The notes under the pieces were generated by a model. The model was not told the DNA's origin. It saw only the letters and a program-made list of their open reading frames with translations, and searched no databases. A stretch of DNA of 64,000 bases from a virus: positions 31,877 through 95,876 of the IMG/VR virus record IMGVR_UViG_3300040771_000133. One strand, written 5' to 3'. How positions within the stretch are numbered: position 1 is the first letter of the stretch; every line of letters begins with the position of its first letter. Positions 1,554 to 29,683 of the stretch are shown here, piece by piece. Position numbers and translations under genes: made by a program.

Positions 1554-2150
1554 ATGGCTATAAATGTTACAACTAAATTATTTGAGCGAAAACCTGGTGT
1601 ATATGAAATAAAAAACTTAGTGAACAACAAAATATATATTGGACAAACTAAAAACGTATACCAAAGGTTTATAAACCATCGCGCTCAACTTCGATTAAAT
1701 AAACATAATAATTCTCATCTACAGAGATCTTTTAATAAACATAGTGAACTAAACTTTATCATTAATGTTTTAGAATATTGTGATGAAAAAGATCTTACTG
1801 AAAAGGAAATTTATTATATTAATCAAGCTGAAAGTGTTTATAACATCAGAGAAGCTTCTGATAGTGTGATACATTATAGAAGAGCTTCTATTACAGAAGA
1901 AACTAGGTTAAAACTCTCATTAGTTAAAAAAGGTATAATTCCTTCAAATTTAGCAGAATTACAACAATTAAATCGTAAAAAAATTGCGTATTTTATTAAT
2001 GATGATTTAGTTCAAATATTTGAATCATGTAAAGATGCCGCTAATAATTTTAAAATTACTAGCAAAGCATTTCATTATTATATTGGTAAGAAAACAAATT
2101 GCAATAGTAAATACTTTCCAAAAGGATATAAATTTGAATATTATGTCTAA
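1554..2150 (+). CDS. GIY-YIG homing endonuclease
   Basis: Residues about 14-100 form a GIY-YIG nuclease domain: GVYEIKN followed by KIYIGQTKN, then an Arg-containing helix (VYQRFINH) and EKEIYYINQ carrying the metal-binding Glu. After it come a NUMOD3-like DNA-binding segment (EETRLKLSLVKKG, about 117-130) and a NUMOD1-like helical segment (IFESCKDAANNF, about 155-185). This is the architecture of free-standing phage endonucleases of the Seg type, which cut target DNA and spread by repair. Its stop overlaps the start of the DNA polymerase gene by 8 bases, a typical place for such an intruder. Confidence 0.9.
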   Translation: MAINVTTKLFERKPGVYEIKNLVNNKIYIGQTKNVYQRFINHRAQLRLNKHNNSHLQRSFNKHSELNFIINVLEYCDEKDLTEKEIYYINQAESVYNIREASDSVIHYRRASITEETRLKLSLVKKGIIPSNLAELQQLNRKKIAYFINDDLVQIFESCKDAANNFKITSKAFHYYIGKKTNCNSKYFPKGYKFEYYV

Positions 2151-10364: not shown

Positions 10365-11384
10365 ATGGTAATAAATTTAAATAAAAAGATGGTGACTAAA
10401 GAGTCATTACTAGAAAAAGTTTCTGACTGGGATGTATATAATATGTACATCCCAGGACAACTAAACCTTAAAGATCCAATACTATCACCTTTAAGAGAAG
10501 AAAGTAAACCATCATTTGGTTTATTTATAGGTGAAAGAGGTGAAATATGTTTTAAAGACTTTAAACTAGGTTCAGGAGATTGCATTAAGTTTGTACAAAT
10601 GAAGTTTGGTTTAGACTACTTTGAAGCTATGAGTAAAATAGCTTTAGATGCAAGACTTGATGGACAATTTATCATTAAAAATACATTTAAAACAAATGTT
10701 AATGCCTCACCTGCAACATCTAGAGCTTCTATTATTACAGCTAATGAACGATTGCATTTAACAAAAAAAAGTAGAAAGTTTGAGTTATTTGACTTATCAT
10801 ATTGGAACCAATTTGGTATAGATCACGAAACATTAGTAAAATACAATGTTACACCAGTAAGTCACATATTCTTTAGTGGTAAAATTGTAGTAGCTGATAA
10901 GCATGCGTATTGTTTCACAGAATGTAAAGACGGTGTAGAAACTTATAAAATCTATCAGCCATTTAATGAAACTTATAAATGGTTAAATAGTCATAATGAA
11001 TCTGTATGGCAAGGTTGGGAGCAACTTCCTAAAACCGGTACAGAAATTATTATTACTAAGTCATTAAAAGATGTAATGGCTATTAACAAGATTCTAGGTA
11101 TACCTGCGGTATCTTTACAAGCAGAAGGCGTTATACCTAAAGAACACATTATTGAGCAGTTAAGAGCTCGTTTTACAATAGTGTTTTTATTATATGACAA
11201 TGATTATGATAAGGAAATAAACTGGGGTAGAGAATTTGGTAAAAAAATTGCAAAAAAACATGAATTAATACAAATAGAAATAAATGAAACCTACAAATCT
11301 AAAGACTTCAGCGATCTTGTTAAAACAATTGGAAAAGAAGAAGCTAAAAAAATACTTGAAGAATCGATCGAGGTTCCTTTTTAA
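10365..11384 (+). CDS. DnaG-like DNA primase
   Basis: A 339-residue primase. Residues about 38-85 match the CHC2-type N-terminal domain of DnaG (SPLREESKPSFGLFI, then CFKDFKLGSGDCIKFVQ) but without a clear set of zinc ligands. Residues about 225-300 form a Toprim domain: IIITKSLKDVMAINKILG, where Lys stands in place of the usual Glu, and IVFLLYDNDYDKE carrying the Asp pair. It should make primers for the polymerase and helicase encoded upstream. An in-frame ATG at 10389 is an alternative start. Confidence 0.85.
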   Translation: MVINLNKKMVTKESLLEKVSDWDVYNMYIPGQLNLKDPILSPLREESKPSFGLFIGERGEICFKDFKLGSGDCIKFVQMKFGLDYFEAMSKIALDARLDGQFIIKNTFKTNVNASPATSRASIITANERLHLTKKSRKFELFDLSYWNQFGIDHETLVKYNVTPVSHIFFSGKIVVADKHAYCFTECKDGVETYKIYQPFNETYKWLNSHNESVWQGWEQLPKTGTEIIITKSLKDVMAINKILGIPAVSLQAEGVIPKEHIIEQLRARFTIVFLLYDNDYDKEINWGREFGKKIAKKHELIQIEINETYKSKDFSDLVKTIGKEEAKKILEESIEVPF

Positions 11385-11402
11385 TGAGGTATACTTAAAA
11401 AT

Positions 11403-11420
11403 AGATGCAATAATGCATCT
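11403..11420 (+). promoter_or_regulatory. hairpin covering a start codon
   Basis: AGATGCA (11403-11409) and TGCATCT (11414-11420) form a perfect 7-bp stem with loop ATAA, flanked by AAAAAT and CTATTTT. The ATG at 11413 straddles the loop and the 3' arm, so pairing would hide it. It may act as a weak terminator after the primase gene or as a translation switch. Confidence 0.4.
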
Positions 11421-11751
11421 CTATTTTAATGAAAATGCTGGACATTATTTACGAATACTAGATGTTAATCTTAGAAAAAATCATTATACAGGAGTTACAC
11501 TTCCTTATATTGAGAAATTTGTTTTAGAAATGAAATTCTCAAAAAGCAATATTGTAGATTACATAATAAAAGCTCATTCTAAAAATAAACTAAAATCTTT
11601 GTATTGTCCAGACATAAAACATATAGTCATACATAATCAATATGCTGGACATAATTATAACCGTGATAATCGTCGTGGATACAGTTATGCTAACCGATCA
11701 AAATACAAATATTTTATTAAACACTTAAATACTTTTAAAAATGCAGGATAA
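11413..11751 (+). CDS. hypothetical protein, 112 aa
   Basis: I take the ATG at 11413 as start, because upstream codons of the frame lie inside the primase gene. The protein has LRILDVNLRKNHYTG, a helical segment IEKFVLEMKFSKSNIVDYIIKAHSK, and a basic, Tyr/Asn/Arg-rich C-terminus (YNRDNRRGYSYANRSKY) suggestive of nucleic-acid contact. Not recognised. It overlaps the next gene by 11 bases. Confidence 0.55.
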   Translation: MHLYFNENAGHYLRILDVNLRKNHYTGVTLPYIEKFVLEMKFSKSNIVDYIIKAHSKNKLKSLYCPDIKHIVIHNQYAGHNYNRDNRRGYSYANRSKYKYFIKHLNTFKNAG

Positions 11752-12169
11752 AAAAGAACCAATTTTAGTAGCGGTATATGGATCATTAAGATCCGGATTT
11801 CATAATCACTCATTATTAAGTGATTCAAAATTATTAGGTACATTTGATACTGAACCTATTTACGATATGTACTCTTGTGGAAGCTTCCCAGGATTAGTAT
11901 TACATGGTTCAACTTCTATTAAAATGGAAATCTATGAAGTTACAGAAGAAGTGAGTAAAAAAGTTGAAAGACTTGAAGGCTATACTAAAGGTGATGAAAT
12001 GGATAACCATTACAATAAAGTAATGATTGATACACCTTATGGTGAAGCTGGTACATACATTTACAATAATTCAACAACTAGACTACCTAAAGTAGATAGT
12101 GGTGATTGGAAAGTATGGAGAGAAATAGTAAGTAAAAATGTTAAGCAAACAGTTTCATTATGGGATTAG
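11741..12169 (+). CDS. gamma-glutamylcyclotransferase-like (AIG2/GGCT) protein
   Basis: 142 aa. The GGCT fold signature YGSLRSGFHN lies at residues 13-22 and binds the glutamyl group in the family. RLEGYTKG (E79) carries the catalytic Glu. Family members cleave gamma-glutamyl amides with release of 5-oxoproline, or remove gamma-glutamyl protecting groups in pathways such as butirosin synthesis. Here it overlaps the ATP-grasp gene by 10 bases and heads the ligase/amidotransferase cluster, so a role in trimming or releasing a gamma-glutamyl intermediate is likely (inference). Confidence 0.85.
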   Translation: MQDKKEPILVAVYGSLRSGFHNHSLLSDSKLLGTFDTEPIYDMYSCGSFPGLVLHGSTSIKMEIYEVTEEVSKKVERLEGYTKGDEMDNHYNKVMIDTPYGEAGTYIYNNSTTRLPKVDSGDWKVWREIVSKNVKQTVSLWD

Positions 12170-13080
12170 TTACAAAAAAAGTATTAGTAAAAAGTTTAAA
12201 TCCTGAGCTTGCAAGACCTGTATCTCAAAAACCTTTTGTAGGTAGAGGTATTTATAGGCCTATGGTACGCTCTAGACATCCTTCGCACAATGGTCTTAGA
12301 ACAGCTATGAAAAGATTACCATTTAGATCAGTGATTAGAATGGGTTCAACTACAGAGCTTACAGATCTTGCAACATTAAATGGCTCTCGTATTGAGTTAA
12401 ACAGTCCAAAAGCTATTGCAAACAGTAGTAGCAAATTCAAGATGAAGACTTGCTTTACAGAAGCAGGAGTTAAGACTGCTCAATGGGTTAACGGTAATAG
12501 TGTTGCAGAAGTTCTACAGTCTCTTAAAAACGAAGACGGTGATACAATTTATCCATTTGTTGCTAAACATTATTTTGGCTCAAGAGGTACAGGTAACACC
12601 CTTATAAAATCAGAAGAAGAGTTCACTCAATGGGCTATTGGTAAAAACTTTGGAACTTATTTATTTGAGAAGTTTTGCAATTTTAACAAAGAGTATAGAC
12701 TGCATGTCACTAAAAATGGATGCTTCTATTCTTGTAGAAAAATGTTAAAATCTGAATTTAAAGACCATCCTAATGCTTGGCAACGTCACGATGATAACTC
12801 TGTATGGATAATGGAACAAAATCCATCTTTTGATAAACCTTCTAACTGGAAAGAAATTGAAGAACATTGTGTTAACGCATTAAAAAGCTGTGGTTTAGAT
12901 TTTGGAGCATGCGATTTAAGAGTTCAAAATAATACTAATTCTAAAGGTGAAGCTAGAGAATCTATTGATTTTATAGTAGTTGAAATTAACTCAGCACCAA
13001 GTTTTGGTGAAGTAACTCTTGAGAAATATAAAGTTGAGCTTTACAACTTGTTAGTTGATAAATATAATAACAAACAGTAA
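12160..13080 (+). CDS. RimK-type ATP-grasp carboxylate-amine ligase
   Basis: 306 aa. ATP-grasp elements in order: FVAKHYFGSRGTGN with K136 and the Gly-rich loop (about 132-146), FEKFCNFNKEYRLHV with E170, and the metal site ACDLRV (D252) with VVEINSAPSF (E275, N277). Such enzymes activate a carboxylate as acyl phosphate and join it to an amine, as in RimK glutamylation or peptide synthesis. Residues 1-80 are a divergent pre-ATP-grasp domain. It is coupled to the GGCT gene upstream and lies near the amidoligases downstream. Confidence 0.9.
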   Translation: MGLVTKKVLVKSLNPELARPVSQKPFVGRGIYRPMVRSRHPSHNGLRTAMKRLPFRSVIRMGSTTELTDLATLNGSRIELNSPKAIANSSSKFKMKTCFTEAGVKTAQWVNGNSVAEVLQSLKNEDGDTIYPFVAKHYFGSRGTGNTLIKSEEEFTQWAIGKNFGTYLFEKFCNFNKEYRLHVTKNGCFYSCRKMLKSEFKDHPNAWQRHDDNSVWIMEQNPSFDKPSNWKEIEEHCVNALKSCGLDFGACDLRVQNNTNSKGEARESIDFIVVEINSAPSFGEVTLEKYKVELYNLLVDKYNNKQ

Positions 13081-13081
13081 A

Positions 13082-13492
13082 ATGGTAGTAGACGAAAGAA
13101 AATGTAAAGAGTTAATGATTACTAATATAGACGGTCGAACCACGAATGTTAGAGTAAGACCATCGGATGGTAGTTATACTAGATCTTTTGGAATAACCAT
13201 AAATCCAACTGATAATTGCCAATTAGCTAGTGCAAATTCAATTGGGCCGTCTATTAAAAGTTTAAATAAGTACCATTTAAGAGACTTGTTTATAAATTTA
13301 AAGCAACATATTAGTAAAAGAATATTACTGTTAGATTTAAATAGACAATTTGTTCAACATCTTTTAGATTGTATACCTGAAAGCGCTGTATTAGTAAAAA
13401 ATGACTATACTTCTACAAATGGTCACTCGATGACTATCTTATTAATAAGATTGTCTTCAATAAGACAGTTACAATTACCAAAAACAAAATAA
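13082..13492 (+). CDS. hypothetical protein in ligase cluster, 136 aa
   Basis: The start at 13082 follows the ATP-grasp stop by one base; an earlier in-frame ATG would lie inside that gene. It is mixed alpha/beta, with TTNVRVRPSDGSY near the N-terminus, RILLLDLNRQFVQHLLDCIP in the middle and STNGHSMTILLIRL as a late strand. I do not recognise the family. Being enclosed by cluster genes on both sides, it is probably part of the same pathway. Confidence 0.65.
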   Translation: MVVDERKCKELMITNIDGRTTNVRVRPSDGSYTRSFGITINPTDNCQLASANSIGPSIKSLNKYHLRDLFINLKQHISKRILLLDLNRQFVQHLLDCIPESAVLVKNDYTSTNGHSMTILLIRLSSIRQLQLPKTK

Positions 13493-13504
13493 ATATAAAA
13501 TAAA

Positions 13505-14221
13505 ATGAAAAAAACAATTGGAGTATACTCGGACACATTCAATGGTAAAGTAGGACAAACTTTTGCATATATGCAATTTTTAAGTCAATTTGGCTACGTT
13601 AGATTAATTTCTACAAGTGATAATTTAGAAACAATAGTTGACCAAGTAGATATGCTTGTGGTTCCTGGTGGAGCAGATGTTGATGCTACTAGATATCGTG
13701 CTGTACCTGGAGTAATGGATGGTAGAACAAACCAACATTATGAATATTTAGACTCTGTATTAATGCCAATCTTTGTTGAAAATAGAAAACCTATCGTAGG
13801 TATTTGTAGAGGTATGCAAAGTTTAAATGTATTTTTTGGCGGTACATTACACCAACATATCGTTGGGCACCAACAAGGTGAAGACAGAGCTGCTACAAGA
13901 CAACCTTTACAATTTGTAGGTTCAGATCAACAAATTTTTGTAAACTCAATGCACCACCAATCTGTGGATGTATTAGGTGTAAATTTAGAGTTAGTAGGTT
14001 ATACAAGAGCTTACCAAGGTTGCTATTCAGGACTCAGACAAGCTCAAAATTGGAGAAACTTTAACAAGAATACTCTAGCTTTAGAAAGTCGTGAAAGAGT
14101 GCCTGTTATAATTGAAGTAATTAAACATGTTGAACTTCCAATTATTGGATTTCAATATCACCCTGAAGAATTCAATTGTGAATATGCTGTTAAAGAAATT
14201 AAAAAACTATTAGAAATATAA
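13505..14221 (+). CDS. class I glutamine amidotransferase / C26 hydrolase
   Basis: 238 aa. Oxyanion strand LVVPGGADVDATRY (51-64), nucleophile elbow GICRGMQ (C101), and the His/Glu pair YHPEE (H219, E221) give a complete Cys-His-Glu triad. The GADVD and HHQSVD motifs are those of peptidase C26 / PuuD, which hydrolyses gamma-glutamyl amides such as gamma-glutamyl-GABA. It could deliver ammonia from glutamine or remove a gamma-glutamyl group; C26-type motifs favour hydrolysis. A second enzyme of the same class follows three bases downstream. Confidence 0.9.
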   Translation: MKKTIGVYSDTFNGKVGQTFAYMQFLSQFGYVRLISTSDNLETIVDQVDMLVVPGGADVDATRYRAVPGVMDGRTNQHYEYLDSVLMPIFVENRKPIVGICRGMQSLNVFFGGTLHQHIVGHQQGEDRAATRQPLQFVGSDQQIFVNSMHHQSVDVLGVNLELVGYTRAYQGCYSGLRQAQNWRNFNKNTLALESRERVPVIIEVIKHVELPIIGFQYHPEEFNCEYAVKEIKKLLEI

Positions 14222-14223
14222 TT

Positions 14224-14916
14224 ATGGAAAGTAAAACTAAAAGAAAAATTGCAGTATTAGTTAATCATTCTCAAAGTATAGGTAAATATATAGCTTTTCT
14301 ATCGCAAGTGTTTGATGTAGAAACTGTAAATGCAAACGAATGGGATTCTTCTAAAAAAATTGACTTAGTTCTATTTACAGGTGGTGAAGATGTTGATCCA
14401 ACTTACTACAATGAAAACGTTGGTGAATATACTCATTGTAATCGTAAAAGAGATGAGTATGAAATGAAACTAATGTTTTCTAGAAGTACTCTTAGAAGAA
14501 TTCCAAAACTTGGAATTTGTCGTGGTGCACAATTTGTAACAGTTATGTCAGGAGGTAAACTTGTACAAGATGTAAATGGTCATGCTATATCTAATTTACA
14601 TAAAATTACATATAAAAATGATTATATTCCAGATATGGATATTACATCTACTCATCACCAAATGATGAATCCATATGATATGGACGAAGCTGCTTATGAA
14701 GTAATAGCTACCTCTACTAACTATTTATCTGACAAGTATTTAAATGGTTTAAACAAAAACATAAGTTTACCAAGAGGATTCAAGGAAGCTGAAATAGTTT
14801 ATTATCCAAAAACTTTAAGTTTGGCTATACAAGGTCATCCGGAAATGGATCATTGCCCAAATGATACTAAACAGTATTGTTTACATTTAATACAAGAATA
14901 TTTAAACTTACAATAA
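14224..14916 (+). CDS. second class I glutamine amidotransferase / C26 hydrolase
   Basis: 230 aa. LVLFTGGEDVDPTYY (48-62), GICRGAQ (C99) and QGHPEM (H205, E207) give an intact triad. Similar to the preceding protein but clearly diverged (GGEDVDPTYY against GGADVDATRY), so the pair is an old duplication and not a recent copy. Paired C26-like enzymes beside amidoligases suggest two distinct gamma-glutamyl cleavage steps or a heteromeric amidase. Confidence 0.9.
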   Translation: MESKTKRKIAVLVNHSQSIGKYIAFLSQVFDVETVNANEWDSSKKIDLVLFTGGEDVDPTYYNENVGEYTHCNRKRDEYEMKLMFSRSTLRRIPKLGICRGAQFVTVMSGGKLVQDVNGHAISNLHKITYKNDYIPDMDITSTHHQMMNPYDMDEAAYEVIATSTNYLSDKYLNGLNKNISLPRGFKEAEIVYYPKTLSLAIQGHPEMDHCPNDTKQYCLHLIQEYLNLQ

Positions 14917-14927
14917 AAAAAATAACA

Positions 14928-15722
14928 ATGAATACATTTAATATTACGTTAGGAGCAGATCCAGAGATATTTATTGAAAATGATGTTGAAATCGTATCAG
15001 CTGAAGGTTTAACAGAAGGTGGTACAAAACATAATCCTAAACCAATTAGTCAACAAGGTCACATGATACAAGAGGATGGTATTATGTTTGAATATAATAT
15101 TCCACCATGTTCAACAGCTGACGAATGGGTAAGACATCATAATTTTTGTTTAAATTACTTAAAAGAACTTGCTGCAAAAAGCAACTTTACTTTAAGTAAA
15201 AAAGTAAGTGATGAAATTAACCCAAAATATTTGGTTACACCTCAAGCAACAACTTTTGGTTGTGAGCCAGATTTCAATGTTTATTTAAAACGTGAGAATA
15301 CTGCTCCTGACAATAACACTAACTTGAGATGTGCTGGTGGTCACGTTGCAGTAGGTTACCCCAATCCTGAGTTTGAAATGTCAGAAAACATTGTTAAAAT
15401 GTTTGACTTGTTTGTTACTTTACCAGCTCTCTTCAAAGACAATGATACGCGTCGAAGAGAGTTGTACGGTAAACCAGGTTCATTTAGGGTAAAAGACTTT
15501 GGTGTAGAATGTAGAGCATTATCTAACTTTTGGATACAATCTGAAGATTTAATGAAATGGGTTTTTAACCAAACTATAATTGCTGTAAATGAAGCATTAA
15601 GTGGTGATCGAAAAGGTTTACTATTAGAATTTTCAGAGAAAGCTAAAAAAGCTATTGATGAAAATGATTTGGTGTCGGCAGAAGGACTGCTTAATCAAAT
15701 TGCTGCAAAGTTAATCAATTAA
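14928..15722 (+). CDS. COOH-NH2 ligase, phiEco32 type (glutamine-synthetase fold)
   Basis: 264 aa. The start is the ATG at 14928, right before TLGADPEIFI (residues 7-16), the signature GADPE of the phage COOH-NH2 ligase type 2 family. DGIMFEYNIPP and a later GGHVAVGYPNP with EFEM-type acids complete the usual metal/ATP site pattern; GVECRALSNFW near 190 matches the family late Arg motif. These ligases are predicted to form amide bonds using ATP. The family was recognised in phiEco32-like phages next to amidotransferase genes, as here. Confidence 0.85.
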   Translation: MNTFNITLGADPEIFIENDVEIVSAEGLTEGGTKHNPKPISQQGHMIQEDGIMFEYNIPPCSTADEWVRHHNFCLNYLKELAAKSNFTLSKKVSDEINPKYLVTPQATTFGCEPDFNVYLKRENTAPDNNTNLRCAGGHVAVGYPNPEFEMSENIVKMFDLFVTLPALFKDNDTRRRELYGKPGSFRVKDFGVECRALSNFWIQSEDLMKWVFNQTIIAVNEALSGDRKGLLLEFSEKAKKAIDENDLVSAEGLLNQIAAKLIN

Positions 15723-15740
15723 AAATAAAAAAATAAACAT

Positions 15741-17720
15741 ATGTGTGGTATATTTGCATGGGCTGGTACGAATCCAAAACAATTTAATAAAGCTAAATAT
15801 GACATCCAAGGTTTGTATAACAACAGTCGAGGTGGGGATTCAAGCGGGGTAAGTACAGATGGTGAAATCTATCATGGTGTATTAATTAATAAAAATTACG
15901 GTGATTTTATTACAGGAACTGGTTATAAAGTTCCTGTGGCAATTCCAACTGTAATAGGTCACACTCGTAAATCAAGTAGTGGTGGTATTAGCGCAGTTAA
16001 TGCACATCCTTTTGGTTTTGGTGACCACAATGAAGGTTTTGAATTTATAGGTGTTCACAATGGTACATTACACAATCAGGATGATTTAGCTTCAGATTAT
16101 GGTGTTGAAGAAAGAGTTTACACTAGAAATAAATTTGGAGTAAAAACTTTTGACAGAACTAAAATAGATTCTGAAATATTATTAGAGTGCATTTTTGTAA
16201 ATGAAAACTTTAGAGTATTATCTGATTACATTGGTGCAGCAGCGTTGTTGTTTACAAATACTAGAGAACCCAATGTGTTATACGCATTTAGAGGAGCTTC
16301 TAAGATGGAAAAACATGGTGCTGGAGGTACAGTAGACGAAAGACCTTTATATTATTATCAAGAGGCTAAAAACAGCGTTTATATTTCTTCAATGCCTGAA
16401 AGCTTAGCGGCCATAGGCGCAACTACAGAAACTATTGAAGAATTTGATGAAAATACTGTTTACAAAATCACTAATGGTAATGTGTTGCATGCTGAAAAGA
16501 TTCTGTTGACTCGATCACATGCTCACCAAAGACCTTTTTACAACTATGGGGGAACTGGTGGTCGTGTTAATAACCAATCGCAAGCATTCACAAATCACTC
16601 ATGTGGTTATGAACCTAAGAATAATAAGTACGCTGGTGGAGCTAAAAGCAGACGTGAAATTAGACAAGCAGCTTTAAATGCTAAAAAAGATCAATCTTCT
16701 AAAAGTACAGCTGTTCAAGGACCGTTTAACATATATGAAGAAGAGATTTCTAAAGTTGGTAAAAATCCAATATATTTTAATAAACTGCGCTATTACAGAA
16801 ATGGTCACTTATTAAATGGTATATATACTTGGGTTCCAGATTTTGGTTTAGTATACTTAACTGATAATACAGATCTTGTTGAAAAAGAACAGGGTGACTT
16901 AATGGATAAACCTTTTAGTCATAAATCAGGAATGTTTATAAATACAATTAATACTAAAGATGTTGTTTATCCTTTTAATAGTATGAATAATCTTAAAGCT
17001 CCAATATTGTATATGTATGAAGGTATTCTAATTTCCAATGATATTGACTTTAAAGCTTTAAGAAATCCAGGATTAACTTTTTCAATATATAATATATCTG
17101 AAATGTCTAAACATCCTATTATTAACTTAAATGCTCTTGATAAAAGCGTTGCTAATAATAATATTATACTTGACAACGAGATCTTTACTGGAACAATATC
17201 TCCATTAGGTTCAGCTTGTATATATGAAATTCAAAATGGAATATTAATGTCTATTAGAAAACTTCCTAATTCAGAATATGAAAATGAAGGTCCAAATGTT
17301 ATTGAATTGCATCCTGAGAAAAAAGTTGAAATTGTAAAAAATGAAACTAAAAGTATATTACTAGATGAATTAAAAAAAAACAATTTATCTCTAGCTAGTT
17401 ATACTGATGTTTTAAAAAAGCAAAATGATGAAGATTTTGAAGATTATCTTCGTGAAAGATATGGTTTAACTGATCAAAGTGGGACTTTATTCCCAGAGGA
17501 AGATTATGTAGACTTACCTATTAATATAGGTACATTTGCAGAAGAAACTATAGCTAATGATCTAGTTAACGAGTTAATGCTTCCAATTTATCTAAAAATT
17601 CAACAAGCTAACACACTTATTGAAATTCATAATAATATACCTTTTGCAAAAGAGGTCATTGATACCAATGAAGAATTTCTAATAACACTAGATGAAATTA
17701 TTGAAAAAACAATTAAGTAA
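15741..17720 (+). CDS. class II glutamine amidotransferase with long C-terminal extension
   Basis: 659 aa. Starts Met-Cys-Gly-Ile-Phe, so Cys2 becomes the N-terminal nucleophile after Met removal. SRGGDSSGV (29-37), GHTRKSSSG (R76), NAHPF (87-91) and HNGTLHN (N107, G108) are the glutamine site of GlmS/PurF/AsnB-like enzymes. The glutaminase domain ends near residue 250. The remaining 400 residues are not a recognisable synthetase or sugar-isomerase domain; about 290-330 is Lys/Ser-rich linker. It would release ammonia for an acceptor. Its stop overlaps the start of the amidoligase by one base (TAATG), so the two are likely made together. Confidence 0.9.
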   Translation: MCGIFAWAGTNPKQFNKAKYDIQGLYNNSRGGDSSGVSTDGEIYHGVLINKNYGDFITGTGYKVPVAIPTVIGHTRKSSSGGISAVNAHPFGFGDHNEGFEFIGVHNGTLHNQDDLASDYGVEERVYTRNKFGVKTFDRTKIDSEILLECIFVNENFRVLSDYIGAAALLFTNTREPNVLYAFRGASKMEKHGAGGTVDERPLYYYQEAKNSVYISSMPESLAAIGATTETIEEFDENTVYKITNGNVLHAEKILLTRSHAHQRPFYNYGGTGGRVNNQSQAFTNHSCGYEPKNNKYAGGAKSRREIRQAALNAKKDQSSKSTAVQGPFNIYEEEISKVGKNPIYFNKLRYYRNGHLLNGIYTWVPDFGLVYLTDNTDLVEKEQGDLMDKPFSHKSGMFINTINTKDVVYPFNSMNNLKAPILYMYEGILISNDIDFKALRNPGLTFSIYNISEMSKHPIINLNALDKSVANNNIILDNEIFTGTISPLGSACIYEIQNGILMSIRKLPNSEYENEGPNVIELHPEKKVEIVKNETKSILLDELKKNNLSLASYTDVLKKQNDEDFEDYLRERYGLTDQSGTLFPEEDYVDLPINIGTFAEETIANDLVNELMLPIYLKIQQANTLIEIHNNIPFAKEVIDTNEEFLITLDEIIEKTIK

Positions 17721-19669
17721 TGGAAAAAGTAATGACATCATTGGGTGAACACCCAAAAGAGAACTGTAGGTTTATAAATGGTGAATACTATTTAATAGGT
17801 GATATTAATGTTGAAAATTCAGGAGATGTGTATCTTATAAACAACAGATTCGTAAGATTTGTTACTGGAAAAATAGTGTTTAATCATAGTGTTAATCAAT
17901 ATCAGTTAAGAAATTCATCAATAGTAGAAGGTGTAGTTAAGTTTGACGGTAATGAAGCTGTTAAAGGATTTTTTGATCCTGCAAAAAGTAACCTGACAAC
18001 TATAATTACATTGTTAAATGGTGAAAGACTTTATGCTATTGATGAAACTAAAATTCCATTATCTTACAGAGAAGTTATTTCTAAAGGTGAATATGCTCAT
18101 ATTTCAAAATATGAAGCTTCAGATTTTATAAAATTGAAATCAGTTAGTCAAAAGTATAAAGAAAGTTTATCTTACGACTCAAAAGGTATTACTGACAGAT
18201 ATTCTGAAAACTTTAGACGTAACTATAATCCTAAGATATCTGCAGATATAGAAAAATATGCTAAATCTATTGGTGATTTAACATTTGGTTTAGAATTTGA
18301 GACTGTAAAAGGTGTAATTCCAGATAATAAACTTGCAGCTTTACCATTAATTCCATTACGAGATGGTAGTATTCAAGGTTTAGAGTATGTAACTATACCT
18401 TTAAGTGGTAAAATTGGAATTCAAGCTGTTATTGATTCTGTAAAGGAGTTAGAGAAAAGAACTGAGTACGATGATAGTTGTGCATTGCATTTACATATTG
18501 GTAACGTACCTAGGACTCCTGAGTTTATTACAGCTTTTTACAAGTTAATTTCACATCATCAAGATGAGATGTTTTCAATGTTTCCGTTATACAAAAAATA
18601 TAACTTTGGAGTAAAACGTAAAAGCTATTCTAAACCATTTCCAGTAAATCTTATCAATCCCCAAATACATCCTAATATAGATGTAAAAAATAGAGAGTCT
18701 ATAATTGCTGGATTTACTCCAATATTTGATTATTTAGCTGAATCTGCAACGTTTGCAGAATACGGTAATGATCTTAACAATGTTGGTGGGCATCCTAGAG
18801 ATCCAGGCGGTAACGCAAAATGGAATATCAATACACGTTATTATGCTGTAAATTTCATACCTCTTATATTTGGTAACCACCAAACTATTGAGTTTAGAAT
18901 TCATACACCAACTTATGATATTGCTAAGATTCTAGACTTTTTATTTATGTGTTCTTATTTAATTAATTACACTATTAAAAATACATCTAAAATACTTTCA
19001 AATCCTAAATTCTTAAATAGTAGAAATTTATCTCAACTTTTAGTAGAGCATGTTATAAATGGTACTAATGTAGATAATAGTACTAAAACTACATTATCTT
19101 CAGAAATGGAAAACTATGTTTATTCTAGAATTAACAGTACTTACAAACAAAACTCAGAAGGTAATGTTAGAGGTGATGAAAACAAAATTAGATTTAATAC
19201 ATATTTAAATTTAAACGGTTTGCACCCATCTAAACCTTTAGAAATTGCTAAAGGAGTTCGTAGAGATAATGATTCTAATAGAGAATCTAGATTTTTTTCA
19301 AAAGGAATGATGCCTAAACCTAAACGTACAGATGGCGCTAGGTTTGATTCAGCAATGAGTGCTAGTATAGCTAGTTTAGATGCGGTATTAGAGAGTGATA
19401 TGCAAGGTTTTATTGAAACTGCGCCTCTTAAATTTACTACTATGGGAACTTATGGTTCAGTAAAATTTCCAGAGCGTAAACCAAATTCAAATCCTCTTGA
19501 AGAATCTTTTAAAGCTTTGCAGCTTGATTTGCAAAACAGACATGCTGGTATAAGTGAATCAATAATTGATATAGATGCTTCAACTTATTATAAAAAGTAT
19601 GGTCATGCAAACTTAGTTGATAAAGTTATAGAAGAAGTTATAAAAGAGCAATCTACTAACGAATGGTAA
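17720..19669 (+). CDS. amidoligase (Amidoligase_2 type, glutamine-synthetase fold)
   Basis: 649 aa. Residues 1-150 form an unknown N-terminal region. The amidoligase core starts at TFGLEFET (E192, E194), continues with DGSIQGLEYVTIPL (D215, E222), ALHLHIG (H257, H259) and IEFRIHTPT with the late Arg near residue 397. These are the metal and ATP ligands of the Amidoligase_2 family, which joins carboxylates to amines. The C-terminal 200 residues are polar and low-complexity. It ends the cluster and is coupled to the class II amidotransferase upstream, a likely ammonia donor. Confidence 0.88.
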   Translation: MEKVMTSLGEHPKENCRFINGEYYLIGDINVENSGDVYLINNRFVRFVTGKIVFNHSVNQYQLRNSSIVEGVVKFDGNEAVKGFFDPAKSNLTTIITLLNGERLYAIDETKIPLSYREVISKGEYAHISKYEASDFIKLKSVSQKYKESLSYDSKGITDRYSENFRRNYNPKISADIEKYAKSIGDLTFGLEFETVKGVIPDNKLAALPLIPLRDGSIQGLEYVTIPLSGKIGIQAVIDSVKELEKRTEYDDSCALHLHIGNVPRTPEFITAFYKLISHHQDEMFSMFPLYKKYNFGVKRKSYSKPFPVNLINPQIHPNIDVKNRESIIAGFTPIFDYLAESATFAEYGNDLNNVGGHPRDPGGNAKWNINTRYYAVNFIPLIFGNHQTIEFRIHTPTYDIAKILDFLFMCSYLINYTIKNTSKILSNPKFLNSRNLSQLLVEHVINGTNVDNSTKTTLSSEMENYVYSRINSTYKQNSEGNVRGDENKIRFNTYLNLNGLHPSKPLEIAKGVRRDNDSNRESRFFSKGMMPKPKRTDGARFDSAMSASIASLDAVLESDMQGFIETAPLKFTTMGTYGSVKFPERKPNSNPLEESFKALQLDLQNRHAGISESIIDIDASTYYKKYGHANLVDKVIEEVIKEQSTNEW

Positions 19670-19686
19670 TAATTCAAAATTATTAA

Positions 19687-20157
19687 ATGGTTGAAATTAA
19701 AATTATTGACGGTGCTGAACATTTATTTATAAAAGGTAATGTACCGTCTCTTAAAAATTCAAAAGTTAAAACTAGTAAAGGTATATTTTCTTCAAAAACT
19801 GTAAATCGTTACATACGATCTCTAGGAATACAAAGTTATTCTTCAGGTAGAAAAGTTGTGAAAGGATATGCTACTAAGCCAAATGAGTTTTTAAAAACAA
19901 TGCCGTTTTTTGAGAAATACTTAGCTGTGAAACCTTACTTAGTAGGGTTTCATTTTGTTAGGGGTAGTAAACATAAATACGATTTCAATAACGCAAACCA
20001 AATTTTAGCCGATTTGATGACGGCGCATGATATTATTGAAGATGATGACACAAGTAACTTCTTTCCAATACCTCTTAAAATAGATGGTAGATTAGACAGT
20101 TATGATAAGGATAATCCTGGTGTCTATATTAAAGTACTTGACCAATCAGTACTTTAA
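19687..20157 (+). CDS. RusA-like Holliday junction resolvase
   Basis: 156 aa. The core KYDFNNANQILADLM (D99) followed by HDIIEDDDTSNF (D119-D121) matches the RusA layout in which acidic residues on a helix and strand bind metal at the crossover. It would cut branched recombination or replication intermediates before packaging. The N-terminal half carries a Lys/Ser-rich insertion not typical of E. coli RusA (120 aa). Replication genes resume here after the ligase cluster. Confidence 0.75.
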   Translation: MVEIKIIDGAEHLFIKGNVPSLKNSKVKTSKGIFSSKTVNRYIRSLGIQSYSSGRKVVKGYATKPNEFLKTMPFFEKYLAVKPYLVGFHFVRGSKHKYDFNNANQILADLMTAHDIIEDDDTSNFFPIPLKIDGRLDSYDKDNPGVYIKVLDQSVL

Positions 20158-27241: not shown

Positions 27242-27367
27242 ATGTTTATAAAAACAATAATTAATAATGAACTATACCTATACTACAATGGAACACTTAT
27301 TTATAAGAGATGGTTGAATTATGGGTATAGCAAATTATTTCAAAACTATAAAATATGGCATCAATAG
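27242..27367 (+). CDS. possible 41-residue protein
   Basis: An ATG at 27242 opens a 41-codon frame, rich in Tyr, Asn and Lys, closed by TAG and overlapping the thymidylate synthase start by 13 bases. It fills an otherwise empty 120-base gap in a densely packed block. Function unknown; it could be untranslated leader. Confidence 0.35.
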   Translation: MFIKTIINNELYLYYNGTLIYKRWLNYGYSKLFQNYKIWHQ

Positions 27368-28494
27368 ATGTGAGTTATCATGCATTATTGCATGAAATAT
27401 TAGAGAAAGGTTATACTTACAAAGATCCTAATAGAAAAGATGTGAATAGAATAGAAATACTTTCTCATACTTTTAGACACGATTTTAAAAAGGGTTTTCC
27501 AGCAATAACTACAAAAAAACTTAATTACAAAAATGTTGTAACAGAGTTAATATGGTTTTTAAGTGGAGATACAAATATTAAATACCTTGTAGATAATGAT
27601 TGTAACATTTGGAACAAAGATGCTTATAAGTATTATCTAAAATTGCATACAGTACATATAAGTCATAAACCAGTATGGAATATTGAAACTTTTATTAAAA
27701 CATGCAAACAAGATGCTTTAATAATTGGTATTCCTAATTATAAAGTTGGTGATTTGGGACCTGTTTACGGTAAACAATGGAGAAACTTTAATGGTATTGA
27801 TCAAATTTCCAAATTAATTCAAAGACTTAAAGACAAGCCTTTAGGAACTGAACATATTGTAAATTCTTGGAATGCTGGTTATTTATCAGATATGGCTTTA
27901 CCACCATGCCATTATGGATTTCAAATAGTTGTAAAACCTTTAGAATTTGATTATGTTGCAGATTACACAGGATTAAAAGAAGATATTTGGTTTAATAAAG
28001 CATGTAAAAATTTAGAACATGGTGATATTATTAAATGTAATAATAAATATTATCAAATATTTTTTGGACCAGAACATGACTCATTTGAAGAATATGTTCA
28101 AGAATATGGATTTGAACTTCATTGGAATCAAAGAAGTGTTGATACATTTCTTGGTTTACCTTATAACATAGCTTCGTATGCTACATTAGCATTGATTTTA
28201 GAGAAGATAACTGGTTATAAAGCATTAGCTATACAAGGTAACTTAAACAAGGTTCATTTGTACGATAATAGCTTAGATGCTGTTAAGGAACAATTGAGTA
28301 GAGATGTACTTCAATTTGATAAATTTAAACTAAAAATACAAGATAAGTCTGAATATTATAAGATTAAAACTTATGGTTTAGAAATTTGTAGTTTAGATAA
28401 TTTACTATCTAATGTTGAAATTGAAGATTTTGAATTAGAAAATTATGAATCATACCCAGCTATTAATGTTAAAATGTTAGAAAGAGATGCGTAA
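27355..28494 (+). CDS. thyA: thymidylate synthase, enlarged
   Basis: 379 aa against about 264 for E. coli ThyA. Conserved: FPAITTKKL (48-56), ELIWFLSGDTN (64-74), GDLGPVYGKQWR (132-143), catalytic LPPCHYGFQ (C185), QRSVDTFLGLPYNIASYA (259-276) and GNLNKVHLYDN (295-305). N271 in PYNIA is the residue that distinguishes dUMP enzymes from dCMP hydroxymethylases, so dUMP is the expected substrate. Extra length comes from an insertion near 91-128 and one of about 55 residues near 198-255 between catalytic Cys and the RSVD strand. A dUMP hydroxymethylase activity cannot be ruled out by sequence. Confidence 0.93.
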   Translation: MASIDVSYHALLHEILEKGYTYKDPNRKDVNRIEILSHTFRHDFKKGFPAITTKKLNYKNVVTELIWFLSGDTNIKYLVDNDCNIWNKDAYKYYLKLHTVHISHKPVWNIETFIKTCKQDALIIGIPNYKVGDLGPVYGKQWRNFNGIDQISKLIQRLKDKPLGTEHIVNSWNAGYLSDMALPPCHYGFQIVVKPLEFDYVADYTGLKEDIWFNKACKNLEHGDIIKCNNKYYQIFFGPEHDSFEEYVQEYGFELHWNQRSVDTFLGLPYNIASYATLALILEKITGYKALAIQGNLNKVHLYDNSLDAVKEQLSRDVLQFDKFKLKIQDKSEYYKIKTYGLEICSLDNLLSNVEIEDFELENYESYPAINVKMLERDA

Positions 28495-28938: not shown

Positions 28939-29271
28939 ATGACAGAAAAAAGATTTGAAGAAGTAGTTAGTATATTTTTAGATGGTATTAAAGAAACTCT
29001 TGTTGTAAAAGGTCGTGAGTATCGTCGTAATAACAATCCATTTCATAACTTTGATATTGGTTCGCAACGTAGCGGTTTAATTCGAGAGAAAGTATTAGAT
29101 GGGTTTTTGTTAAAACATGAAATATCTATTGCTGATATAACTAATGATTTAGAAAAAGATGTTTTACCTAAAATTTCAACATTAGATGAGAAGTTTGGAG
29201 ACAACGTAATTTATCTTATAATTAAGATGGCATCAATAATTGATAGAATTGAAGAAAATGATATGGTTTAA
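28939..29271 (+). CDS. DUF1599-like nucleotide-modification-associated protein
   Basis: 110 aa. GREYRRNNNPFHNFDIGS (about 26-43), LLKHEISIADI and KFGDNVIYLIIKM follow the DUF1599 pattern (Y...NPF.NF, KH..SI.D, E/D..YL). That family is listed as associated with nucleotide modification in phages; its biochemical role is unknown. The neighbouring thymidylate synthase and upstream MazG-like gene make a nucleotide-metabolism role plausible. Confidence 0.65.
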   Translation: MTEKRFEEVVSIFLDGIKETLVVKGREYRRNNNPFHNFDIGSQRSGLIREKVLDGFLLKHEISIADITNDLEKDVLPKISTLDEKFGDNVIYLIIKMASIIDRIEENDMV

Positions 29272-29683
29272 AAAAAAGAGAGTTGAATTAGGTGAAGGTC
29301 ATATTATTCAATATACCATATTTGAATCAAAATATTTTGGTGGAATATGGATATATAATTGGAAAACTATTGGTCAAAACAGATTTCACACTCATGCTTT
29401 TAAATCAATAGCTATAACATTAAATGGTAGTTACATACAAGAAGTAATAAAAGATAATAAAATTATTGCTCAAGTTGTAAAAAGTAAATTTATACCAAGA
29501 TATTTACCAAGAAATTATTGTCATAGAATATTAGAAGCTAAACCTAATACTTGGACAATTGTATTTTTTGGTAAATGGTCTGAATATTGGTGGGAATATT
29601 TTCAAGATTCAAAAACTTGGGTAAAATATACTTGGGGAAGAAAAGTAATTTTAAAAACTAAAAATAAAGATGGTGCAGTATAG
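29258..29683 (+). CDS. cupin-like conserved phage protein
   Basis: 141 aa from the ATG at 29258, with another in-frame ATG at 29240 possible; both overlap the preceding gene. NRFHTHAFKSIAITLNGSY resembles the first cupin motif with two His, and RYLPRNYCHRI with TWTIVFFGKW resembles the second, so a metal-binding double-stranded beta-helix is likely. Trp/Tyr-rich C-terminus (WWEYF, YTWGRKV). Related proteins occur widely in phages without known substrate. Confidence 0.6.
   Translation: MIWFKKKRVELGEGHIIQYTIFESKYFGGIWIYNWKTIGQNRFHTHAFKSIAITLNGSYIQEVIKDNKIIAQVVKSKFIPRYLPRNYCHRILEAKPNTWTIVFFGKWSEYWWEYFQDSKTWVKYTWGRKVILKTKNKDGAV

Follow-up and report, generated by a model that had tools for sequence, protein, structure and literature searches.

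The eight consecutive plus-strand genes at 11741-19669 of the window (the whole 64,000-nucleotide stretch of viral DNA that was analysed) raise the question of whether their products act in a single pathway and, if so, on which substrate. The answer proposed here, held tentatively and with somewhat less than even confidence, is that the cassette constitutes one phage pathway, probably an early one, that most likely edits the peptide of an envelope precursor at the inner membrane face so that the wall is altered. Its reference to the envelope is the least secure element of this proposal.

Gene layout and source genome

The ORF list agrees with the positions, plus strand and tight spacing described in the sequence-only reading. 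No junction gap in the cassette (Table 1) exceeds 18 bases: the GGCT and ATP-grasp genes overlap by 10 bases, followed by gaps of 1, 12, 2, 11 and 18 bases, a 1-base overlap of GAT2 and AMID2, and 17 bases to the RusA-like gene. An ORF at 11284-11751 sits between the DNA primase gene and the cassette. ATG starts were chosen for the small ORF (13082) and the COOH-NH2 ligase (14928), for both of which upstream TTG starts are listed. The Pfam matches of GGCT, C26a, C26b, CNL and AMID2 are all above the Pfam cut-offs.

Table 1. Cassette genes and flanking genes in the window
Feature	Position	Strand	Evidence
DNA primase, upstream flank	10365..11384	+	phrog_12622 2.5e-67
GGCT, gamma-glutamyl cyclotransferase-fold, YtfP/AIG2-like	11741..12169	+	PF06094 3.5e-17; phrog_2520; PDB 1xhs YtfP 2.9e-13
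ATP-grasp carboxylate-amine ligase	12160..13080	+	phrog_2599 3.4e-33; weak PDB-profile matches to ATP-grasp enzymes; conserved residues
Small protein, predicted GNAT-like fold	13082..13492	+	AF2, Foldseek; without Pfam or PHROG match
C26a, class I glutamine amidotransferase / gamma-glutamyl hydrolase-like	13505..14221	+	PF07722 4.7e-26; PDB matches
C26b, second class I amidotransferase / gamma-glutamyl hydrolase-like	14224..14916	+	PF07722 1.8e-20; conserved Cys-His-Glu
CNL, COOH-NH2 ligase type 2, phiEco32-like	14928..15722	+	PF14395 2.6e-7; phrog_3815 2.2e-68; conserved residues
GAT2, class II glutamine amidotransferase, Ntn domain about 1-260 plus C-terminal region	15741..17720	+	phrog_4736 2.1e-9; profile to GFAT/PurF 8.4e-13
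AMID2, Amidoligase_2, about 180 aa ahead of amidoligase core	17720..19669	+	PF12224 2.5e-5; phrog_2443 5.3e-38
RusA-like resolvase, downstream flank	19687..20157	+	phrog_1682 1.2e-10

The crAss-like setting suggested earlier is borne out by TerL, by head, portal and terminase PHROGs and by a counterpart of the cassette in phage phi14:2. TerL of the genome matches 149 records, and the eight matches listed are cr111_1, cr85_1 and cr126_1 (two records each), bajarodcaudo virus 1 and a Kolpuevirus, which are crAss-type by name; portal, major head and terminase PHROGs were also matched in the genome. Judged by its terminase, portal and capsid proteins, the source genome is crAss-like (Crassvirales).

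Enzyme families and conserved residues

Pfam, PHROG and profile matches uphold the families assigned earlier to GGCT, both C26 proteins, the COOH-NH2 ligase, the class II amidotransferase, Amidoligase_2 and the ATP-grasp protein, and do not uphold the RimK label given to the last. This protein lies below every Pfam cut-off, its only ATP-grasp-type Pfam match being CPSase_L_D2 (E 0.11), and it matched no RimK model, so 'RimK-type' goes back to a PHROG name only (PHROG 2599, 'ribosomal protein S6 glutaminyl transferase', 3.4e-33). Matches to PDB profiles of ATP-grasp enzymes are weak (best 5.7e-6). Among homologues K92, E178, R180, K194, D252 and E275 are each conserved in 110 of 110 sequences and N277 in 99 of 110. 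This similarity and the conserved Lys, Asp, Glu and Asn place the protein, as judged from its sequence, in the ATP-grasp superfamily.

The catalytic residues that had been called intact are, GGCT apart, conserved across the homologue alignments. In C26a and C26b the Cys-His-Glu triad is complete, and in their pooled homologues C99 was found in 130/136, H205 in 132/135 and E207 in 134/135 sequences, by which both proteins are assigned to Peptidase C26 / class I amidotransferases. The window C26 proteins match PuuD in the PDB, among others, and C26a also matches the probable glutamine amidotransferase 7d4r and Lin1909. CNL shows conserved residues in its alignment and gave no matches in the PDB profile search; AMID2, for which that search gave insignificant matches only, has conserved GxExE, DGS, HxH and EFR residues. 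GGCT enzymes have a catalytic glutamate; in the automatic alignment E63 is conserved in 85 of 90 homologues and the glutamate of the LEG motif in fewer than 90 %.

GAT2 falls just under its Pfam cut-off (PF13522, 26.5 bits versus 27), and its family profile finds GFAT/PurF at 8.4e-13. C2, H74, R76, N107, G108 and D143 are each present in 112 of 112 homologues, and with residue roles known from the family the catalytic cysteine and glutamine-binding residues identify it, on sequence grounds, as an Ntn class II glutamine amidotransferase. Its AF2 model matches GFAT, PurF, ASNS and EgtC in Foldseek, GFAT and PurF ranking above EgtC. The C-terminal part could be assigned to no family and is modelled with low confidence; the 50 matches listed for GAT2 are to class II amidotransferases, and no synthase domain was recognised on GAT2 by Pfam or by AF2 with Foldseek.

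The gene earlier described as the one unknown still has no Pfam or PHROG match, and it now has a predicted fold. The AF2 model of its product (pLDDT 75.7, alignment of six sequences) has GNAT acetyltransferases as best Foldseek matches (E 0.0057, probability 0.99; none at E <= 0.001 in the PDB), with VIA Z values of up to 8.3, a middling value. The acetyl-CoA loop Q/RxxGxG/A, as the motif is generally known, was not seen by eye in the six-sequence alignment. A GNAT-like fold is predicted with moderate certainty. No similarity of the small protein to phrog_4877 was found by hhalign, for which the profiles are shallow.

The cassette in other phages

Two sets of loci were compiled. The 60-locus set comprises 46 loci from one search, phi14:2, nine hand-picked annotated phages, three loci from the contig profile search and the window; counting began after removal of rows L001 (the window itself), L061 and L062. 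Bacterial homologues gave no pointer to function: a ligase-alignment search of genome contigs, limited to a single peptide pattern and so no evidence that such homologues do not exist, yielded three metagenome-bin contigs. The 79-locus set, of which 78 loci came from the best 80 of 180 amidoligase relatives, is taken as crAss-type by gene order and amidoligase similarity, and its lowest-scoring loci may belong to phages of other kinds. Some contigs occur in both sets, and the 60-locus set served to train the HMMs used for the 79 loci; eight loci from a GAT2 query stand outside every count.

In the 79-locus set GAT2 was found in 78 loci, ATP-grasp in 76, GGCT in 72, the ligase in 71 and C26 in 63; no cassette gene lies on the other strand, and 71 loci have a primase-family match. 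The COOH-NH2 ligase, Amidoligase_2, ATP-grasp protein and class II amidotransferase are all present in 48 of the 60 ligase-containing loci, with GGCT in or beside the cluster in 27. The small-protein HMM matched 8/60 loci (window included; crAss-type loci only) and 15/79. A phrog_4877 protein is encoded in 29/60 loci, in none of the 79 and not in the window. C26b adjoins the COOH-NH2 ligase in the window, and a C26 gene precedes the ligase in many loci. Across dozens of contigs of this type the cassette recurs regularly and in a set order. The idea of a joint pathway would have been refuted, by the condition named earlier, if the genes never occurred together outside this genome; they co-occur in dozens of loci. 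The earlier link to phiEco32-like phages also holds, the set being present in Kuravirus 172-1.

A close annotated counterpart is in Cellulophaga phage phi14:2 (NC_021806, Crassvirales, Steigviridae), whose g037-g041 locus has the same order of primase, GGCT, ATP-grasp, COOH-NH2 ligase, class II amidotransferase and amidoligase, but without the C26 and GNAT-like genes between ATP-grasp and ligase. As a cultured example, phi14:2 on Cellulophaga offers a practical system for testing the pathway. Phages of the RIO-1/PSA-HP1, LUZ24, PaP3, PA11, CW02 and phiEco32 type share the COOH-NH2 (gamma-glutamyl) ligase, a second amidoligase, ATP-grasp, glutamine amidotransferase and GGCT, and records of the RIO-1/LUZ24/phiEco32 type also resemble the window in C26 (in several), in a single strand and in proximity to replication genes. 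Their order, however, is different (C26-CNL-P4877-AMID2-GAT2-ATPG in many), and these sets of the podovirus type often, not universally, have between CNL and AMID2 the phrog_4877 protein of about 200 aa that the window lacks. The part of AMID2 ahead of its core has no similarity to its counterpart in these phages detectable by hhalign; with the same method, on shallow profiles, it did not prove homologous to phrog_4877 or other cassette domains.

The implied novelty of the set was not sustained. In PMC5498523 and PMC11945000 comparable sets of RIO-1- and LUZ24-type phages are termed peptidoglycan modification genes; from such sets these papers and PMC10580990 deduce that peptidoglycan or the cell wall is modified and superinfection excluded, which is a prediction, and PMC10580990 cites Iyer et al. 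2009 for a pathway predicted in phages years ago. C26-type genes also occur in such sets of annotated phage records, and phi14:2 has annotated genes for every family except C26. The cassette is a version of an already predicted phage pathway and is not new as a kind. New are the crAss-type gene order, the GNAT-like partner and a short hydrophobic GAT2 extension in 41/78; besides the GNAT-like gene, the presence of several C26 copies also counts as a new part. No open-licence paper pairing crAss-like phages with an amidoligase was found, nor in that literature a published experiment identifying the cassette substrate, and the available parts of the papers on phages PPAT/PPAY and mycobacteriophage Giles contain no test of the cassette. 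According to PMC4281155, proteins named ATP-grasp ('graze'), glutamine amidotransferase and YtfP were detected among early products of the phiEco32-related SU10. A location of the enzymes in the virion was not accepted, as the SU10 material used for mass spectrometry had been precipitated with PEG and not purified on CsCl.

Putative membrane anchor, proposed pathway and alternatives

A short hydrophobic extension ahead of the catalytic cysteine was detected in 41 of 78 GAT2 ORFs of the 79-locus set, whereas the other seven families scanned there had 0 or 1 such N-terminus each. Hydrophobicity was scored with a Kyte-Doolittle window, not a dedicated topology predictor, and the anchor is putative; two GAT2 rows have no recognisable CG motif and two lie just below the hydrophobicity cut. 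Judged from these ORFs, roughly half of the nearest relatives studied appear to have a membrane anchor on one of the cassette enzymes. In phi14:2 the extension lies inside the annotated gene, whereas the window GAT2 begins with Met-Cys and has none. On a 102-row FastTree tree, which gave long-branch warnings, the anchor requires at least 24 changes (16 of them forced by starred branches; shuffled mean 32). Since the window GAT2 has no anchor and the changes are so many, the anchor is not essential. In the anchored row L134 an ATG also stands directly before the cysteine. The amidoligase of row L031 in the 60-locus set has a hydrophobic stretch near its N-terminus too.

By the positive-inside rule, basic residues beside a membrane segment stay on the cytoplasmic side. 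By eye, basic residues usually come after the hydrophobic stretch, which would put extended GAT2 on the cytoplasmic face of the membrane. The extension hints that the pathway works on the inner side of the cytoplasmic membrane, fits envelope-precursor editing and points to where the substrate may be. Among the titles listed in a search of the open-licence literature, none describes an anchored phage amidotransferase.

Amidoligases and ATP-grasp enzymes use ATP to form amide bonds, in most cases with glutamate or some other amino acid; enzymes of the class I and class II glutamine amidotransferase folds can supply ammonia or strip gamma-glutamyl groups, and GGCT can free a gamma-glutamyl end as 5-oxoproline. 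In the proposed pathway the two amidoligases and the ATP-grasp enzyme would form amide bonds, the amidotransferases and GGCT would supply ammonia or trim, and the small GNAT-like protein may attach or cap an additional group. A single pathway is favoured because the families co-occur, share a strand, keep their order and also cluster in unrelated phages in another order. The enzymes would work one after another on a shared acceptor, for which a peptide carried by an envelope precursor, for instance the peptidoglycan stem peptide, is the most likely candidate; expression in the window's phage would probably be early. Editing at the inner membrane face would alter the wall and lead to superinfection exclusion or affect lysis timing; if true, this bears on how these phages exclude competitors or control lysis. 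A more specific version, which we consider doubtful, is that crAss-like phages perform membrane-tethered amide editing: about half would make the class II amidotransferase in a precursor form that inserts into the membrane, and only processing behind the membrane segment would release its catalytic cysteine, coupling activity to insertion; with the two amidoligases, the ATP-grasp and the GNAT-like protein the enzyme would rewrite a lipid-linked host envelope precursor.

The envelope reading is supported by the conserved active-site residues, the lack of a recognised synthase domain on GAT2, the anchored GAT2 forms, the published inferences and the early products of SU10. It is weakened by the window GAT2 having no anchor, by the published peptidoglycan idea being itself a prediction, and by the cassette families having no match to a Mur ligase or MurT-like partner in Pfam and PHROGs. 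Glutamine amidotransferases of the MurT/GatD (PMC3267633) and AsnB/LtsA type amidate cell-wall peptides, but the cassette has no Pfam match to a MurT-like ligase or an asparagine-synthetase domain. The ligases might instead glutamylate a small-molecule amine, with C26, the class II fold or GGCT removing the glutamate after a middle step; the outcome would then be a metabolite free to diffuse, such as a signal, an inhibitor, a counter-ion or a redox compound, and not cell wall. This is possible, though on balance improbable. The Puu (PuuA ligase, PuuD of the C26 fold), ergothioneine (EgtA, EgtC of the class II amidotransferase fold) and butirosin (BtrJ ATP-grasp, BtrG a GGCT) pathways each combine a gamma-glutamyl ligase with one such remover, as in the cassette, but they are cellular with a known product, and the phage set unites all three remover folds. 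The PuuD matches, EgtC among the Foldseek matches of GAT2, and C26 adjoining or preceding the ligase agree with such a route, but GFAT and PurF outrank EgtC for the GAT2 model, no constant middle-step enzyme (oxidase, aminotransferase) was seen among the families scanned, and a membrane anchor is unexpected for soluble metabolite chemistry.

Attachment of amino acids or peptides by the ATP-grasp enzyme and amidoligases to a host or phage protein (e.g. RNA polymerase or a ribosomal protein), with trimming by the hydrolases, is unlikely. It agrees with the name of PHROG 2599, with the position near replication genes and with the peptide modification of proteins that Iyer et al. 2009 are said to have proposed for such families, but no RimK Pfam model is matched, a set of five or six enzymes seems large for a single tag and no constant target gene was seen in the neighbourhood. 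An amino-acid adduct built on phage DNA bases is the least probable explanation of all: the cassette lies beside, or at most two small genes from, a primase or primase/helicase in several phages, and the PHROG scan found a thymidylate synthase family protein at 27355-28494, yet nothing in the analysis favours a DNA adduct, and none of the 40 genome proteins scanned, a set outside stretch L062, the large late window genes and other ORFs, matched a PHROG named as a DNA hypermodification enzyme. It is also very unlikely that the genes are merely neighbours by descent and belong to no single pathway. In the mirror-tree analysis cassette gene distances also follow the primase (rho 0.64-0.94), so that shared descent explains part of the linkage, and the correlation was rejected as proof of a joint pathway, primase having tracked as well or better. 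However, clusters of these families also occur, in differing orders, in phage groups unrelated to one another, and unrelated families of complementary chemistry remain linked.

Composition and family assignment of the cassette

An ORF scan of the window placed eight genes head-to-tail on the + strand, in the order GGCT, ATP-grasp protein, small protein, C26a and C26b (two Peptidase_C26 class I amidotransferases), COOH-NH2 ligase, GAT2 (class II glutamine amidotransferase) and Amidoligase_2. The junctions comprise overlaps of at most 10 bases and gaps of at most 18 bases, with the start of the small ORF taken as 13082 and that of the ligase as 14928, which confirms the compact cluster described in the sequence-only reading. 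The families named there for GGCT, both C26 proteins, the COOH-NH2 ligase and Amidoligase_2 were borne out by Pfam scores above the curated cut-offs. GAT2 fell 0.5 bit short of its Pfam cut-off, and its assignment as a class II amidotransferase was upheld by its PHROG name and a PDB profile match to GFAT/PurF (8.4e-13). For the protein proposed as a RimK-type ATP-grasp enzyme the ATP-grasp part stood, on a PHROG name and weak PDB profile matches (best 5.7e-6); the RimK type is a PHROG label only, since no Pfam family exceeded the cut-off in the Pfam search and the PDB profiles point weakly to ATP-grasp. In PDB profile comparisons GGCT resembled YtfP (2.9e-13), and the C26 proteins resembled probable glutamine amidotransferases, Lin1909 and PuuD.

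Alignments of 90-140 distinct sequences per family revealed invariant or nearly invariant positions, which we take from family knowledge to be active-site residues: Cys2, His74, Arg76, Asn107, Gly108 and Asp143 of GAT2 (112/112 each), Glu192, Glu194, His257, Glu391 and Arg393 of Amidoligase_2 (108/108), Asp11, Glu13 and Glu55 of the ligase (110/110), Lys92, Glu178, Arg180, Asp252 and Glu275 of the ATP-grasp protein (110/110), and, with C26a and C26b homologues pooled, Cys99 (130/136), His205 (132/135) and Glu207 (134/135). The catalytic Glu of GGCT was sought in the family alignment and could not be placed with certainty.

The AlphaFold model of the small protein (pLDDT 75.7) had GNAT acyltransferases as its best PDB matches (E 0.0057, probability 0.99; none at E <= 0.001). 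After realignment nearly all top rows were GNATs or acyl-homoserine lactone synthases, with an antizyme first at a middling Z of 8.3. The top viral match was a phi14:2 protein of 204 residues (E 6.4e-4), with an annotated acetyltransferase next. Inspection by eye did not reveal the usual acetyl-CoA loop motif. We tentatively assign the protein a GNAT-like fold. Five clear relatives were present among the 60 ligase-carrying loci, with more found by HMM.

Features of the window and of related loci (window positions unless a locus is named)
Feature	Position	Strand	Remark
Homing endonuclease, GIY-YIG-type match	1554-2147	+	overlaps start of DNA polymerase ORF
DNA primase	10365-11384	+	one flank of cassette
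Eight-gene cassette	11741-19669	+	
Small protein	13082-13489	+	
RusA-like resolvase	19687-20157	+	other flank of cassette
Cysteine dioxygenase-like protein	29240-29680	+	phrog_4786, 2.1e-32; same + strand block as cassette
GAT2 of phi14:2	L002 21354-23270		extension inside annotated gene
phrog_4877	L050 7782-8360		podovirus-type cassette
phrog_4877	L052 8796-9413		podovirus-type cassette
Second class II amidotransferase-like ORF	L018 13968		
Second class II amidotransferase-like ORF	L037 10604		
Second class II amidotransferase-like ORF	L038 14171		
Second class II amidotransferase-like ORF	L056 13459		
GroEL-like chaperonin	L061 15066-16439	-	458 aa, phrog_5725, 8e-107; adjoins terminase gene

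Occurrence of the cassette among phages

In a tblastn search of 50,697 phage records the ligase was found in 311 and C26b in 58. The only cassette match at the DNA level in these records was the cultured crAss-like phage phi14:2 (two records, 6 % of the query, 69.6 %). Its genes for primase, GGCT, the ATP-grasp protein, COOH-NH2 ligase, class II amidotransferase and amidoligase follow the order of the window, but the C26 genes and the small gene are missing. In the human-gut phage cr108_1 the primase gene is followed by a small gene, ATP-grasp, two genes without assignment, C26, the ligase, the amidotransferase and an amidoligase; GGCT was not found at this locus.

Family HMMs applied to a first set of 60 loci, all with the ligase and nine picked by hand, detected ATP-grasp in 57, GAT2 in 54, Amidoligase_2 in 51, C26 in 48, phrog_4877 in 29, GGCT in 27 and the small protein in 8; because several loci stop near the ligase, a missing gene may in some cases reflect truncation of the locus. 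Ligase, GAT2, Amidoligase_2 and ATP-grasp occurred all together in 48 of the 60. A second set, sharing some contigs with the first, comprised 78 loci anchored on the amidoligase (from the best 80 of 180 relatives) and Leptolyngbya phage Lbo-JY46. Here GAT2 was present in 78 of 79 loci, ATP-grasp in 76, GGCT in 72, ligase and primase in 71 each, C26 in 63 (at least two C26 ORFs in 40) and the small protein in 15, and no cassette match lay on the opposite strand. By these counts the gene set of the window, including its C26 pair, is ordinary for the group, in which the crAss-type label rests on gene order and amidoligase similarity.

In podovirus-type cassettes (L050, L052 and 27 other loci) the ligase and amidoligase genes are separated by one for phrog_4877, a functionally unassigned protein of about 200 aa; none of the 79 second-set loci gave a match to it. 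Some cassettes (L018, L037, L038 and L056) contain another class II amidotransferase-like ORF, located 3' of the gene for the amidoligase or the ATP-grasp protein. Genes of NAD-salvage type, for phosphoribosyl pyrophosphate synthetase together with nicotinamide or nicotinic acid phosphoribosyltransferase, are found close to the cassette in the phages Salmonella SE131, Aeromonas 4_4572 and Leptolyngbya Lbo-JY46 (L054, L057 and L064).

N-terminal extension of the class II amidotransferase

In class II amidotransferases the catalytic Cys must be the first residue of the mature protein. A start codon directly precedes this Cys in the window GAT2 and in 33 of the 78 second-set GAT2 ORFs. In another 41 of the 78 the Cys is preceded by an extension that contains a hydrophobic stretch (mean Kyte-Doolittle value of 2.0 or more across 17 residues), after which, as judged by eye, basic residues usually come; in one of these (L134) a start at the Cys is also possible. 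Two further ORFs were just below the hydrophobicity cut and two had no recognisable motif. The same test on other second-set proteins gave 0/83 for GGCT, 0/76 for ATP-grasp, 0/107 for C26, 1/75 for ligase, 0/82 for amidoligase, 0/19 for the small protein and 0/72 for primase. In the first set a hydrophobic N-terminus was present in 25 of the 848 + strand ORFs that reach 150 residues. Near the N-terminus the cut was reached there by eight ORFs for GAT2 and by a single amidoligase (L031), and L037 has a similar, shorter stretch.

The extension was 24-33 codons long in 41 of 43 cases. In twelve non-overlapping pairs, 75 differences fell on first, 43 on second and 86 on third codon positions, a pattern expected of a protein sequence under selection. 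On a 102-row FastTree tree, which carried long-branch warnings, the trait required at least 24 changes (mean after shuffling, 32), of which starred branches impose 16, and the three nearest relatives of the unextended window GAT2 possess it. Judged from this tree, the extension has evidently been gained or lost many times. The sequence features suggest that the extended GAT2 is a membrane-anchored precursor facing the cytoplasm.

Proposed pathway and genomic setting

Ligases make amide bonds at the expense of ATP, amidotransferases supply ammonia or remove gamma-glutamyl groups, and GGCT releases gamma-glutamyl ends. The linkage of these genes across unrelated phages leads us to infer that the enzymes would act jointly on one acceptor. 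The main rival product is a soluble gamma-glutamyl-protected metabolite: each of the cellular Puu, ergothioneine and butirosin pathways employs one of the cassette's three remover folds, and EgtC was among the matches listed for the GAT2 model. An envelope precursor is tentatively favoured as the acceptor, at somewhat less than even odds, because of the likely membrane-anchored GAT2 variant and of earlier authors' proposals of peptidoglycan modification and superinfection exclusion.

Published work describes a peptidoglycan modification cassette of seven genes in podoviruses of the RIO1 type, naming also phiEco32, 7-11, PA11, tf, MR299-2, LUZ24, PaP3 and CW02 (PMC5498523), a LUZ24-like phage with a putative module for peptidoglycan modification (PMC11945000), the gene set in the gene table of UFV-P2 (PMC3890496) and a predicted cell-wall modification in phiEco32 (Iyer et al. 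2009, cited by PMC10580990). In the phiEco32 relative SU10, ATP-grasp, glutamine amidotransferase and YtfP-named proteins were among early gene products detected by mass spectrometry of PEG-concentrated lysate (PMC4281155), so cassette-type genes are expressed in SU10; a lysate of this kind does not place the proteins in virions. In the open-licence literature no paper on the crAss-type cassette and no functional experiment was found. The cassette is genuine, shows strong conservation and is a variant of a pathway previously predicted for phages. What it adds is the crAss-type gene order, the GNAT-like gene and an amidotransferase that, in roughly half of the relatives covered, is likely to be membrane-anchored.

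The window represents bases 31877-95876 of the 95,876-base virus record. The terminase, portal and major head protein of this virus have PHROG matches; the terminase matches 149 phage records, and 8/8 among the matches listed are crAss-type by name. The + strand block around the cassette also contains DNA polymerase, a weak DnaB-like match, a Sak4-like gene, ribonucleotide reductase and a thymidylate synthase family gene. The cysteine dioxygenase-like gene in the same block possibly links a sulfur metabolite to the cassette. A homing endonuclease lies in the window, and a GroEL-like chaperonin gene of this crAss-like phage was noted to its left (L061, same record).
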